IMG/VR virus record: IMGVR_UViG_3300033153_006183
Coordinates: 1-39,474 of that record
Strand: one strand, 5' to 3'
DNA: 39,474 nucleotides
Origin: a virus
Both the position numbers and the translations under genes were made by a program. The notes beneath the pieces are model-generated. The model saw only the letters and a list, made by a program, of their open reading frames with translations. It searched no databases and was not told the origin of the DNA. Positions within the stretch are counted from its first letter, which is position 1, and every line of letters begins with the position of its first letter. Below are positions 2,465-29,927 of the stretch, in pieces.

Positions 2465-2622
2465 GGCTATTTAAAGCCAAAACAAGTATAATATAACATG
2501 CAACAGTTGAAAAGCTGTTCAAAAAGAGCCTATCTTAAAGAGGGCTTGGCTGCTCACTCCTCCTCACGGACACGGGTTGAGTCCTCCTCTTTAAAATGGC
2601 AAAAGTTCGTGAGGAGCTACAA
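2465..2622 (+). promoter_or_regulatory. Structured 5' leader that can mask a ribosome-binding site
   Basis: This 158-base gap holds, in order: a TATAAT box at 2487-2492 with no good -35; a 7-bp hairpin with a GAAA tetraloop (2502-2519); TTAAAGAGG (2535-2543), complementary to CCTCTTTAA (2586-2594); and CTCCTCACGGAC (2560-2571). The last pairs over 12 bp, one of them G-U, with 2605-2616. That stretch contains the GAGGAG ribosome-binding site of the gene at 2623. The two long helices interlace, so they form a pseudoknot or are alternatives. This suggests translational control of the downstream gene. Pairing was worked out by hand. Confidence 0.55.
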
Positions 2623-3120
2623 ATGAACAAGAAACAAGAAATCCAAGACAAAATTACCGAAAACAAAGCTTGTAGAGAAAATTCCAAGCATGCTTTAAGT
2701 TTTTACAAAGAGAGGGTAGATTTTTATGACAAAGATTTAATTGAACTCGAAAAGCAATTAAAAGAGTGCGATGAGTTGAAGTTGGTTGACGGATGGACTA
2801 AAGAGTATAGTTACACACTAGAGCAAAGAACAAAAGATGGTAGATGCTATTCAACATTGGAACTATTAGAAATAGCCACAAAAAACACAACCACGCGTGA
2901 CAGACTTGAAGCGTATAGTAGGGTTATAGATGCTGATTGGAGAGAAAATTGGAACAGCGCCGTTAATCAAAGAAACTACTACATTAATTGTGACCAAGAA
3001 GATGGAGAGTTTATTGTGAAGTTTGATACGAGATTTAAACGATTAGGCACAACATATATGAGCAAAAAAGCCGCCATAAGAATCGTAGATGCGTTGAACA
3101 ACAACGAAATAGAACTTTAA
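2623..3120 (+). CDS. Hypothetical protein ahead of ssb, 165 aa
   Basis: No family recognised. The first 60 residues form a charged helix with coiled-coil character. The rest looks globular, with several aromatic residues (WRENWNSAVNQRNYY near residue 118). I place the start at 2623 because GAGGAG sits 6 bases upstream. An in-frame ATG at 2596 lies inside a predicted stem and has no ribosome-binding site. Ten bases separate its stop from ssb, whose own ribosome-binding site lies in that gap, so a role in DNA replication or repair is plausible. Its leader is unusually structured, implying translational regulation. Confidence 0.7.
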   Translation: MNKKQEIQDKITENKACRENSKHALSFYKERVDFYDKDLIELEKQLKECDELKLVDGWTKEYSYTLEQRTKDGRCYSTLELLEIATKNTTTRDRLEAYSRVIDADWRENWNSAVNQRNYYINCDQEDGEFIVKFDTRFKRLGTTYMSKKAAIRIVDALNNNEIEL

Positions 3121-3130
3121 AGGAGTTAAA

Positions 3131-3673
3131 ATGTACAATAAAATAATTTTAGCAGGAAACCTTACCAGAGATGTAGAGGTTAGATATACTCAAGGTGGGA
3201 GTGCTATAGGAAATACAGCAATCGCAACAACACGAAAGTTTAAATCTCAAACAGGGGAGCAGAAAGAAGAGGTTTTGTTTGTGGACTTAACATTTTTTGG
3301 AAGAACTGCTGAAATTGCTAATCAATATTTACGTAAGGGATCTAAAGTTCTAGTAGATGGACGTTTGAAGTTAGACCAATGGACTGCACAAGATGGACAA
3401 AAGCGAAGCAAGCACTCTGTTACGGTGGAAAACTTGCAAATGCTAGACAGTAAGCCACAAGACGGACAACAGGCACAAGCACCACAAACTCAAAATGCAC
3501 CTACCCACCAAGCCCCACCACAAGGGCAATACACACAACAGCCAGCACCGACAACTCAAAATCGAGAAAATGATTTAAGCCAACAAGCGCAAAACCAACA
3601 GGGCACGATCCCACAGATAGACATAGATACAGATGAAATTCCATTCATGCCTCTTAATTGGAGATTATCATGA
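3131..3673 (+). CDS. ssb: Single-stranded DNA-binding protein
   Basis: An SSB that coats single-stranded phage DNA during replication and recombination. Residues 1-105 form the OB fold and start in the typical way (MYNKIILAGNLTRDVEVRYT), with LFVDLTFFGRTAEIANQYLRKGS and VDGRLKLDQW as further signatures. Residues 110-155 form a Gln/Pro-rich disordered linker. The acidic partner-binding tip (DTDEIPF) is present but followed by eight extra residues (MPLNWRLS), whereas bacterial SSBs normally end at the Phe. Those extra codons hold the ribosome-binding site of the next gene. AAAGGAG precedes the start. Length (180) is normal for the family. Natural partners would be RecT and host replication proteins. 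Confidence 0.95.
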   Translation: MYNKIILAGNLTRDVEVRYTQGGSAIGNTAIATTRKFKSQTGEQKEEVLFVDLTFFGRTAEIANQYLRKGSKVLVDGRLKLDQWTAQDGQKRSKHSVTVENLQMLDSKPQDGQQAQAPQTQNAPTHQAPPQGQYTQQPAPTTQNRENDLSQQAQNQQGTIPQIDIDTDEIPFMPLNWRLS

Positions 3674-4244: not shown

Positions 4245-4639
4245 TCGGCAAAGACAAAAACATGAATATTCATCCGCTAAAGAACCCCGACTCAAAAGGT
4301 CACTATGGGAACATGATAGAGGATATGGAAAAAACATCAAGTGTTGCATCCATGATGGGCTTTGTAGAAAACAATATCGAGAAATACCGAAGAAGATTGG
4401 GTAAAAAGTCACACCTCAGCGGGGTTGTGAAAGATATACTCGACCTCCATTTTATAGATCATCCTGGAGAGTTTGAACAATTTAAAGAAATTCATCTTGA
4501 AGAAGTTAGGCAAAGTGATCTAAAAAAGATAGAAACATACAAGGCATATGGAGATGTGCTGAAAGATTTGCTCCATAAGGGATACAAGGGTATGACTGTA
4601 TCGTATGCTTTGGAGTCGGAGGGGATCGAGTATGAATAA
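4241..4639 (+). CDS. Hypothetical protein, 132 aa
   Basis: Function unknown. The protein appears mostly helical. The N-terminal 45 residues are Met-rich, followed by a basic patch (EKYRRRLGKKSH) and an acidic middle. The C-terminus (YKGMTVSYALESEGIEYE) has a weak helix-turn-helix look, not strong enough to call. It starts on the ATGA overlap with the preceding gene and its end overlaps the next methyltransferase by 8 bases. Confidence 0.65.
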   Translation: MIGKDKNMNIHPLKNPDSKGHYGNMIEDMEKTSSVASMMGFVENNIEKYRRRLGKKSHLSGVVKDILDLHFIDHPGEFEQFKEIHLEEVRQSDLKKIETYKAYGDVLKDLLHKGYKGMTVSYALESEGIEYE

Positions 4640-5300
4640 TCTTACAAGTGATTACATAGATAGCAAGATGAACACTATAATTCATGCAGATTGTCTTGAA
4701 GTTATGAAACAGACACCAGATGATTATTTTGATTTGGTTTTGACAGATCCGCCTTATGGGATTGATTTGGCTAATATGAATATGGGGATAGGCAATACAC
4801 CAAAAGCATCCAAGAAAGAAAATAGAAAATGGGAAAACAAAGATTGGGATAGTGATGTGCCAAGTGATGAAATATTTTCAGAAATATTTAGGGTAAGTAA
4901 AAATCAAATTATATGGGGCGGTAATTATTTTAATCTCCCTCCTCATAAGTTCTATATTTTATGGGATAAACAAATTCCAAACGGGTTAAGTTTCGCAGAC
5001 TGTGAAATGGCTTGGACCTCATACGATAAGGCACCTAGAATATTTAGGTATTCAGCGTATAGGGATAAGGCTGGAAAACTACACCCAACTCAAAAGCCAT
5101 TGATGTTGTTTGAGTACTGTATAGAAGAAGCACAAGCCAAAGGTGATGTGGTTAAAGTATTTGACCCGTTCATGGGTTCAGGCACCACAGCAATAGCTTG
5201 TAAGTCTTTAGGCTTAGATTGGTGCGGATGCGAACTAGAAGCTGATTATGTAGAGATAGCAAACAAAAGACTTGAAAAAGTGCAGGGTGCGTTATTCTAA
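4632..5300 (+). CDS. DNA methyltransferase, beta-class (second copy type)
   Basis: A second SAM-dependent DNA methyltransferase. The catalytic motif is DPPYG (residues 39-43) and the SAM motif DPFMGSGTT (about 178-186), again in beta-class order. DPPY favours N6-adenine but does not prove it. The start at 4632 has GGAGGGG about 7 bases upstream; a TTG at 4605 is less likely. The C-terminus (NKRLEKVQGALF) resembles that of the methyltransferase at 430-1269, but the middles differ, so target sites probably differ. Together they bracket the replication genes. A role in protection from restriction is likely. Confidence 0.9.
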   Translation: MNNLTSDYIDSKMNTIIHADCLEVMKQTPDDYFDLVLTDPPYGIDLANMNMGIGNTPKASKKENRKWENKDWDSDVPSDEIFSEIFRVSKNQIIWGGNYFNLPPHKFYILWDKQIPNGLSFADCEMAWTSYDKAPRIFRYSAYRDKAGKLHPTQKPLMLFEYCIEEAQAKGDVVKVFDPFMGSGTTAIACKSLGLDWCGCELEADYVEIANKRLEKVQGALF

Positions 5301-27870: not shown

Positions 27871-29927
27871 GCTTTCGCCCCTCTCATCTTCCCCACAACA
27901 TCCTTGACAACATCATCTTTCCTTTTGGCTTCATCATCATTCTTCTTGTTCACCATATCATCAACCTTAATACCCGCCTCTACCCTCTTAGTCTCTAGGT
28001 TGATATTCGCTACTTCTAGCTTAATGCCTTCTATCTCAATCTTTGCCTTATACTCCATATCTTTAAGCTGTAGTTGTAGTTCGCCCTCTTTGGCTTGTGC
28101 TTCGGCTTCTATCTGTTGCGGTGATGGTTGCTGAGGTGGTGCATCCTTCTGTATCTCTTCTTGGTCTTCTTTACTTAGTAGATTAAGCGGTAATCCTTTT
28201 TTCAATCTCTCTGCTATTGCATCAGAATTATTGAAGTCCATATTATCCGCTATGAGATCCCCCGCCACTTCTGCGACTTGTGGGATTGCTTGTGCAAAGT
28301 TTAGAATACTGTCTGCTGTTTCCATACGCTTAGTTGCGTAACTCGCTCCAGTGGTAATTACAACATCATATTTACCCATTGCTAAGTCATTGATAACTAC
28401 TTCTTCGCCTGACTCTTCATCCATGACAACTTTATTGATTTCCACAAAGTCACCGCTTCCGTCTGGAGATTTAATTCTTAGTATTCTTTCAGTATCGTAC
28501 GTTTTAGGGATTAGCTCTACACAAAGTATTCCTACTCTTCGCATGGCATTGGATAAGCTGTCTACAAAGTCGAATGTACCCGTATCTGCTTCACTTTGTC
28601 GTGCCATGATAGCGCGTCCACTTGTTTCGTTCCCTGCCTTACCTATTGAAGCATCATAAATACCTATCGTTGATTGTATAGATTGCTGCATATTTTGTGC
28701 CATATTTATTTCTGCAATAGGCATAAGTGGTGCTGCTTCTCTTTTTGGTGCTGCAAATCCTTTATTATATGGCAATACGCTGTAGTTTTTAGTGTTGGCT
28801 GTTTTCCAAATAGTTTCATACCCCTCAATCGCTCCTGCTTCTGCAATGTATGGAGCCTTGGGCGCTAAGGATATTCTTTCTGTCGCTGCACTCTGCCAAT
28901 AGTTCAGCATTACTTGTGGATCTTTCGCGTGTGTGATGGCTCCCTGATAGCTTCTTTTGCCGTTTACGATAACTTCTCTACCCAATACCGGAACGATAGG
29001 GATTGTGCTCGTTGGGAATTCTCTCTCTTTTTCAAGTATTGCATTGGCTGTTATCTTACACCAAATGACTTTATAAGTATTTACTTTTCTCTCTCTCGTA
29101 ATCGTTACGCCCATTTCTTCGAGTTCATCAATTACATCTTTCATATCATCTTTATAAACAGTTTCACCGCTACTTAATAGACAGAGAGTCCTCGTAACAG
29201 GTTCGCGTCTAAAGTATTCTGATACTGTGATCGTTCTATTGTCACCCCAAAATGCCCTATTCTCTGTGGTATCTAGGTTTCCGATTGCTTTCCCAGGGTA
29301 TCTTACTTTAAACTCACCATGGCTGATCTGTTCATGGATGAACCCATACCCTGCATCTGAGTAATCACTCTCTTTAGAATGAGGATCAATAAGTACAGAT
29401 AACCTGTCTCTGATAGCTTCTATTTTAATATCTTGCTCAAAGGAGTCATTCCTAGAGTAATCAGTAAGGACTCTTAACCATCCTACCCCTGACAGGCAAT
29501 GTCTAAATGCTGTTTTGTATTGTGCGGGTGCATTAGAGATGGATTGAATGTTTCTAATTACTCCCTCTAGGACACTTGAAAGGTTCTCATCATTCCCCCC
29601 TACTGTTTTAATAGTAGGCTCTTTTTGAGAGTTAGACTCTACAGGGGATATTTTAATCTCTTGGACCTGCTTCTTTTGTGCGCCTGCAATTCGTGAGATG
29701 TATTGTTGGAGTTGGTTTATCACTAAGGTTGGTCTACCCTCATCATCTCTCTCATTGAGAGTTTCTTGATCCCATTGGCTACCTGCGATAAAGTTCTCAT
29801 CATCTCTAGAGGTTGCAAAAGTTTCTCTCCATCCGAATTGTGCGACAGCTACTCTTTCCCGCGCTTCTCTTAGGATGTCTGCCTCTGTGTTGCCTTCTCT
29901 TGTCTGTATCGGTTTATTTGTTATCAT
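27867..29927 (-). CDS. Portal protein, P22 gp1-like
   Basis: The dodecameric ring through which DNA enters and leaves the head. The N-terminus (REARERVAVAQFGWRETFATSRDDENFIAGSQWD) and the following RPTLVINQLQQYISRIAGAQKK are typical of P22-type portals. Length 686 is close to the 725 of P22. The C-terminal 100 residues are a Gln/Glu/Lys-rich coiled coil, the barrel region of this family. It follows the large terminase after 9 bases. Confidence 0.93.
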   Translation of the reverse strand: MITNKPIQTREGNTEADILREARERVAVAQFGWRETFATSRDDENFIAGSQWDQETLNERDDEGRPTLVINQLQQYISRIAGAQKKQVQEIKISPVESNSQKEPTIKTVGGNDENLSSVLEGVIRNIQSISNAPAQYKTAFRHCLSGVGWLRVLTDYSRNDSFEQDIKIEAIRDRLSVLIDPHSKESDYSDAGYGFIHEQISHGEFKVRYPGKAIGNLDTTENRAFWGDNRTITVSEYFRREPVTRTLCLLSSGETVYKDDMKDVIDELEEMGVTITRERKVNTYKVIWCKITANAILEKEREFPTSTIPIVPVLGREVIVNGKRSYQGAITHAKDPQVMLNYWQSAATERISLAPKAPYIAEAGAIEGYETIWKTANTKNYSVLPYNKGFAAPKREAAPLMPIAEINMAQNMQQSIQSTIGIYDASIGKAGNETSGRAIMARQSEADTGTFDFVDSLSNAMRRVGILCVELIPKTYDTERILRIKSPDGSGDFVEINKVVMDEESGEEVVINDLAMGKYDVVITTGASYATKRMETADSILNFAQAIPQVAEVAGDLIADNMDFNNSDAIAERLKKGLPLNLLSKEDQEEIQKDAPPQQPSPQQIEAEAQAKEGELQLQLKDMEYKAKIEIEGIKLEVANINLETKRVEAGIKVDDMVNKKNDDEAKRKDDVVKDVVGKMRGAKA

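Follow-up and report, generated by a model that had tools for sequence, protein, structure and literature searches.

Pseudoknots that close a Shine-Dalgarno (SD) sequence are already known. In the ColIb-P9/IncB repZ leader, the loop of a hairpin pairs near the SD hairpin, and the pseudoknot decides translation. This system requires a leader peptide and the antisense Inc RNA, neither of which is conserved or seen at the locus described here.

The leader pseudoknot of T4 gene 32 nucleates the binding of the phage single-stranded DNA-binding protein (SSB, gp32). It is about 28 nt long and lies at the 5' end, and the SD is left in a less structured, UUAAA-rich stretch (PMC535899). Our leader is similar in that it concerns phage replication genes, that a pseudoknot stands before an ssb-type gene, and that the structure persists although the sequences of different phages have diverged (PMC535899). 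However, here the SD is itself a strand of the pseudoknot, an extra helix (P0) crosses the fold, and a less structured start region rich in UUAAA or UAAA is absent, with only 6 nt between the SD helix and the AUG. Additionally, the first controlled gene is not ssb, which even lies upstream of the leader in two phages (L023 and L024). In preQ1 riboswitches, the SD is closed in a pseudoknot that forms around a ligand pocket; our leader shares with classes I-III a pair of interlaced helices, one of which includes the SD or anti-SD (PMC11625349). Unlike in preQ1 riboswitches, its helices are much longer (14-20 and 7-12 pairs), conserved pocket nucleotides are lacking, and the first genes are unrelated. 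The timP and tisB leaders also combine a 5' pseudoknot with a closed SD, but their pseudoknot is apart from the SD hairpin and activates translation (PMC11228461, PMC7708055). A toxin or antisense RNA was not recognised at our locus, and the single-stranded standby stretch upstream of the SD hairpin has no counterpart, as unpaired joins in our model are at most 12 nt. Thus, of the known systems compared (T4 gene 32, timP/tisB and preQ1), none fits on its defining features.

In this study, we analysed the leader of an ssb operon in the IMG/VR virus record IMGVR_UViG_3300033153_006183, whose whole stretch of 39,474 nt we call the window. We conclude that the leader is real, conserved and structured, that it is apparently undescribed, and that, judging from sequence comparisons, it likely functions in translational control. 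Rfam 15 gave no match at the gathering cut-off for the window or its eight relatives, and relaxed E-values near the window gave chance matches only. A literature search, with most subscription papers outside its coverage, found no such leader described for this phage group.

Results

The leader precedes the first gene of the operon (2623-3120; 165 aa), whose start is supported by relatives. Both lie on the plus strand. An exact TATAAT -10 element at 2487-2492 places the predicted transcript start near 2499, so that the leader start of 2465 in the preliminary description is too early. The 5' hairpin (HP; AACAGUU-GAAA-AGCUGUU, 2502-2519), with seven pairs between 2502-2508 and 2513-2519, thus begins a few bases from the predicted 5' end. 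The GAAA-tetraloop hairpin that had been placed ahead of both helices is present, but the GAAA loop is not general among relatives, where the hairpin at this position differs in sequence.

Direct reading of the sequence confirmed both of the helices that had been described. In the first (H2), the anti-SD strand CTCCTCACGGAC (= CUCCUCACGGAC; 2560-2571) forms 12/12 pairs, including one G-U, with GTTCGTGAGGAG (= GUUCGUGAGGAG; 2605-2616). The latter holds the SD, GAGGAG, at 2611-2616, 6 nt upstream of the ATG at 2623. In the second (H1a), TTAAAGAGG (= UUAAAGAGG; 2535-2543) forms 9/9 pairs with CCTCTTTAA (= CCUCUUUAA; 2586-2594). The strands follow each other in the order 5'-H1-H2-H1-H2-3', and H1 and H2 are thus interlaced. 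We found two further parts. H1 extends past its nine pairs, as beyond a bulge in the 3' strand (CCU, 2583-2585) GCUUGGC (2544-2550) forms 7/7 pairs with GUUGAGU (2576-2582), which we call H1b. The additional helix P0 pairs GAGC (2526-2529) with GCUC (2552-2555) and frames the 5' strand of H1; in most relatives its strands read AAGAGY and RCUCU.

The interlaced pair of the window scored 51, whereas 400 dinucleotide shuffles averaged 11.8, the best of them scoring 43.5 (p = 0.0025, which is the floor of the shuffle test and was unchanged when the SD end was held fixed). The ordinary nested fold of the window gave z = -2.55 and -2.79 against shuffles.

The same architecture was found in eight other phage contigs (L002, L003, L004, L007, L009, L013, L023 and L024), with largely different letters in the stems. 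Homology searches blind to structure had reached 24 loci by ssb and two contigs, L002 and L003, by the first gene; the eight relatives emerged when we scanned for interlaced helices with an SD at their end. Five of these (L002, L003, L004, L007 and L009) were reached by the structure-blind gene searches and are nearly unbiased tests because their leaders precede a first gene or ssb that was found by homology. The remaining three were picked by structure, and independent support there comes from P0, the bulge and the promoter. Each of the nine leaders reached p ≤ 0.005 against its own shuffles; in the combined value of 2.5e-14, the share of L013, L023 and L024 is inflated, since these were found by structure.

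Descriptor scores of the true copies ranged from 39.5 to 60.5, and in a control of 566 kb of other viral DNA nothing exceeded 36.5 apart from the known copy in L003. A few other sites in ssb-bearing contigs scored 41-44, which we judged to be chance because they lie within coding sequence or are terminator-like, and a long inverted repeat without an SD in phage NrS-4 scored 54. Thus, a lone copy would be weak proof. Each contig has one copy; scans covering most of each contig gave no second. No convincing leader was found in the Nitratiruptor phages NrS-2 and NrS-4, in Campylobacterota plasmid stretches or in a Helicobacter prophage. A DNA similarity search of phage records returned no relatives for four leaders, and a peptide-pattern search of 84,980 bacterial genomes confirmed no relatives of the first gene. 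When the whole viral collection was scanned twice with DNA patterns from the leader only, five known true copies came back and no new ones; all five are near ssb, none without it. Sequence searches miss this leader because it has almost no sequence conservation.

The nine leaders share one anatomy. The 5' part consists of the 5' hairpin, AAGAGY (P0), the 5' strand of H1, RCUCU (P0), the 5' strand of H2 and a loop of 3-11 nt. The 3' part consists of H1b, the bulge, H1a, a join of 4-12 nt, H2 with the SD, and the AUG. The bulge measures 3 nt in seven leaders and 4 nt in L002 and is a single mismatch in L009; its sequence is unconserved. All 281 named pairs form between a leader's own strands, a figure that follows from how the pairs were chosen and for which swapped partners are the control: with a strand from another phage, pairing fell to 46-64%. 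By helix, own and swapped partners gave 93/93 versus 57% for H1a, 54/54 versus 46% for H1b, 43/43 versus 64% for P0 and 91/91 versus 64% for H2.

Covariation in relatives, which the preliminary description had named as a check, was found. Comparison of the window with L004 shows one double compensatory change in P0 (C-G to U-A) and two more in H2 (U-A to C-G and C-G to U-A). Two further changes affect one strand only and leave the pair intact, and a single end pair is lost. At the fourth position of P0, four phages have C-G and another four U-A; P0 of L024 stops at three pairs, and the helix has just 3-4 pairs in the window, L013 and L024. As covariation is strong, the structure is directly testable.

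In an alignment of the nine sequences that was not structure-aware, the GAG of P0 was the sole invariant triplet of the leader body. This suggests that the loops hold no conserved pocket. A metabolite had been listed among the possible ligands, and the layout does resemble preQ1 riboswitches, with an SD closed in a pseudoknot (PMC11625349). However, zero unpaired nucleotides are conserved across the nine leaders, loops and bulge vary between relatives, and among the unrelated first genes we recognised no metabolic one. Together with the lack of an Rfam match, this makes a metabolite riboswitch of the pseudoknot type very unlikely.

Promoter and 5' hairpin are identical in L002 (4800-4890) and L004 (3570-3640), but what follows them, leader body and first gene alike, differs markedly, and the leader body of L004 resembles that of the window. 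Read in this way, the leader module is a mosaic, and leader body and first gene seem to have been exchanged as modules by recombination.

A -10 box matching at five or six of six positions was present in 8/9 leaders, at background frequencies per scanned window of 14-21% for 5/6 and 1-3% for 6/6. It ends 27-33 nt before P0 in 7/9 and 47 nt before it in L023; L013 has no convincing -10 box. The leader of L023 is longer than those of its relatives owing to several GCGATAT copies inserted between its -10 box and 5' hairpin (2249-2277).

As the structure starts at the predicted 5' end, the leader might only stabilise this end against a 5' exonuclease, with the pairing of the SD being secondary. 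We hold this to be highly improbable, because in each of the nine leaders H2 contains the SD and reaches to within 5-10 nt of the start codon, which is unneeded for protection. The pseudoknot could also be a translation enhancer that docks S1 or the 30S subunit and so lets ribosomes reach a closed SD. Pseudoknots close to the 5' end act in this way in the tisB (PMC7708055) and timP (PMC11228461) mRNAs, both of which have closed SDs. However, tisB requires a single-stranded standby stretch, whereas here structure extends from about the third nucleotide to the SD, and the SD is part of the pseudoknot itself. We regard an enhancer as quite unlikely.

In the window, a 41-codon open frame (2498-2624) extends across the entire leader, and its stop codon shares the letters ATGA with the start of the first gene. 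We discounted an upstream peptide in the window because the ATG of this frame coincides with the predicted 5' end or precedes it. A conserved upstream peptide was also rejected: L007, L009 and L013 have shorter frames, but those of L002 and L004 stop after four codons. An in-frame ATG without an SD at 2596, in the join between H1 and H2, makes a longer first-gene product possible, and AUGGCA is found at the equivalent place in L004 and L007.

The preliminary description spoke of alternative or pseudoknotted folding. The pseudoknot hiding the ribosome-binding site stands, but alternative folding is unneeded, since the helices can coexist in a coarse three-dimensional check. This check used rigid A-form helices and length-limited linkers, without energies or chain crossing. 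At this coarse level, H1 and H2 were feasible together in 9/9 leaders, and all four helices were feasible if H1 bends at the bulge. When H1 was kept straight, the strain on P0 was clear in L013 and L023, slight in L007 and L009, and marginal in L002 and L004. In this model, the bulge looks like a hinge. Steric mutual exclusion of P0, H1 and H2, which we had suspected because P0 frames the whole 5' strand of H1, was unsupported by the geometry.

Mutual exclusion is also the premise of a bistable switch, in which the long hairpin H1 (SD free, ON) would compete with P0 and H2 (SD closed, OFF) and kinetics or a factor would decide. Both helix sets are conserved, the 3' strand of H1 is transcribed ahead of the SD, and nested models favour the H1 fold over P0 and H2 by 3-9 kcal/mol in eight leaders (in L024 the order is reversed, by 2.4). 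However, the two helix sets share no nucleotides except one in L009, the coarse geometry permits both at once, and the conserved 3-nt bulge fits one compact fold better. We therefore think a bistable switch unlikely. An RNA thermometer was rejected because H2, at -11 to -20 kcal/mol, was judged too stable to melt in ordinary growth.

Searching for a trans-acting RNA, we found no exact match of at least 12 nt elsewhere in the contig stretches examined except one of 14 bases. This match (TCAAAAAGAGCCTA; 29615-29628, minus strand) to leader positions 2519-2532 lies in the portal gene of the window and is probably chance. The minus strand has one weak promoter-like site.

The first gene of the window has no Pfam or PHROG family, and the predicted model of its protein has a mean pLDDT of 57.5. 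The gene for SSB follows (3131-3673, plus strand; PF00436, E = 1e-32; phrog_44), with a YopX-like gene after it, and the record also holds P22-like portal and coat proteins. The SSB matches a Sulfurovum mangrovi protein at 65% and Nitratiruptor phages at 52%. As it is closest to Campylobacterota proteins, the host probably belongs to that phylum. Two genes for N6/N4-type DNA methyltransferases (430-1269 and 4605-5300) flank the ssb operon, and other methyltransferase-like genes lie ahead of the leader in some relatives.

The first genes behind the leaders comprise a family of unknown function (in five phages, directly first in four), a MUG113/T5orf172 gene, a 90-aa protein, a winged-helix-like protein, a 24-aa frame and a 42-aa stub. 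None is ssb. Because the first genes differ, their product cannot be the common regulator. In L024 (4576-4701; L046 from 6576 on), the frame behind the leader starts like a phage helicase and stops after 42 aa, and is followed in another frame by the end of a DNA methylase-like frame; this looks like an internal deletion.

The leader could also be an operator for the phage SSB, which would bind first to the pseudoknot, then to the start region, and so repress its own operon, as T4 gp32 does. An ssb gene lies within 1.7 kb of the leader in 9/9 phages, no protein family but SSB is shared by all nine contigs, and the five copies from the leader-only scans are all near ssb. However, ssb was mostly the bait with which the contigs were collected, and in L023 and L024 the leader stands after ssb, ahead of other genes. 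Additionally, the SD region of the T4 operator is unstructured (PMC535899), whereas here the SD is inside a helix, and AAGAGY/RCUCU is double-stranded, unlike an SSB-type site. An SSB operator, which would be a special case of the lid that we propose below, thus seems doubtful.

Discussion

We propose that this element exerts translational control in cis: a promoter-borne 5' leader of about 120 nt would place a double pseudoknot as a lid on the SD of the first gene. We give this reading a probability of about 0.65. It is consistent with the pairing of the SD in a conserved helix, H2, that covaries in all nine leaders. Against it speak an energy model limited to nested folds, in which part of the SD strand stays open (mean unpaired probability of 0.36-0.72), the lack of a convincing -10 box in L013 and the short P0 of the window, L013 and L024.

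According to our model, the leader is transcribed from its own promoter, and the RNA would fold from its first nucleotides into the 5' hairpin and a compact double pseudoknot of P0, H1a-bulge-H1b and H2. H1, P0 and H2 would coexist in this one fold. By closing the SD, H2 would make OFF the default state, in which the first gene is poorly translated. In this early operon, which usually bears ssb, the first gene would then depend on the opening of H2 for its translation, and some factor may open H2 or lock it further. As the opener, we consider a small molecule less likely than a protein or the ribosome itself.

A more specific possibility, which we offer tentatively and would not expect to hold in all its parts, is that these leaders form an undescribed class of phage RNA. 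Its long helices would be free of sequence constraint, and the SD of early phage operons would be opened or locked by a factor that reads the short crossing helix AAGAGY/RCUCU; the phage SSB, a ribosomal protein and an infection signal are candidates for this factor.

Among SD-closing pseudoknots, the one described here matches no Rfam family, and its fold is unusual in its two crossing relations and its conserved hinge-like bulge. Finding what opens H2 would show how this phage group times its early, ssb-bearing operons.
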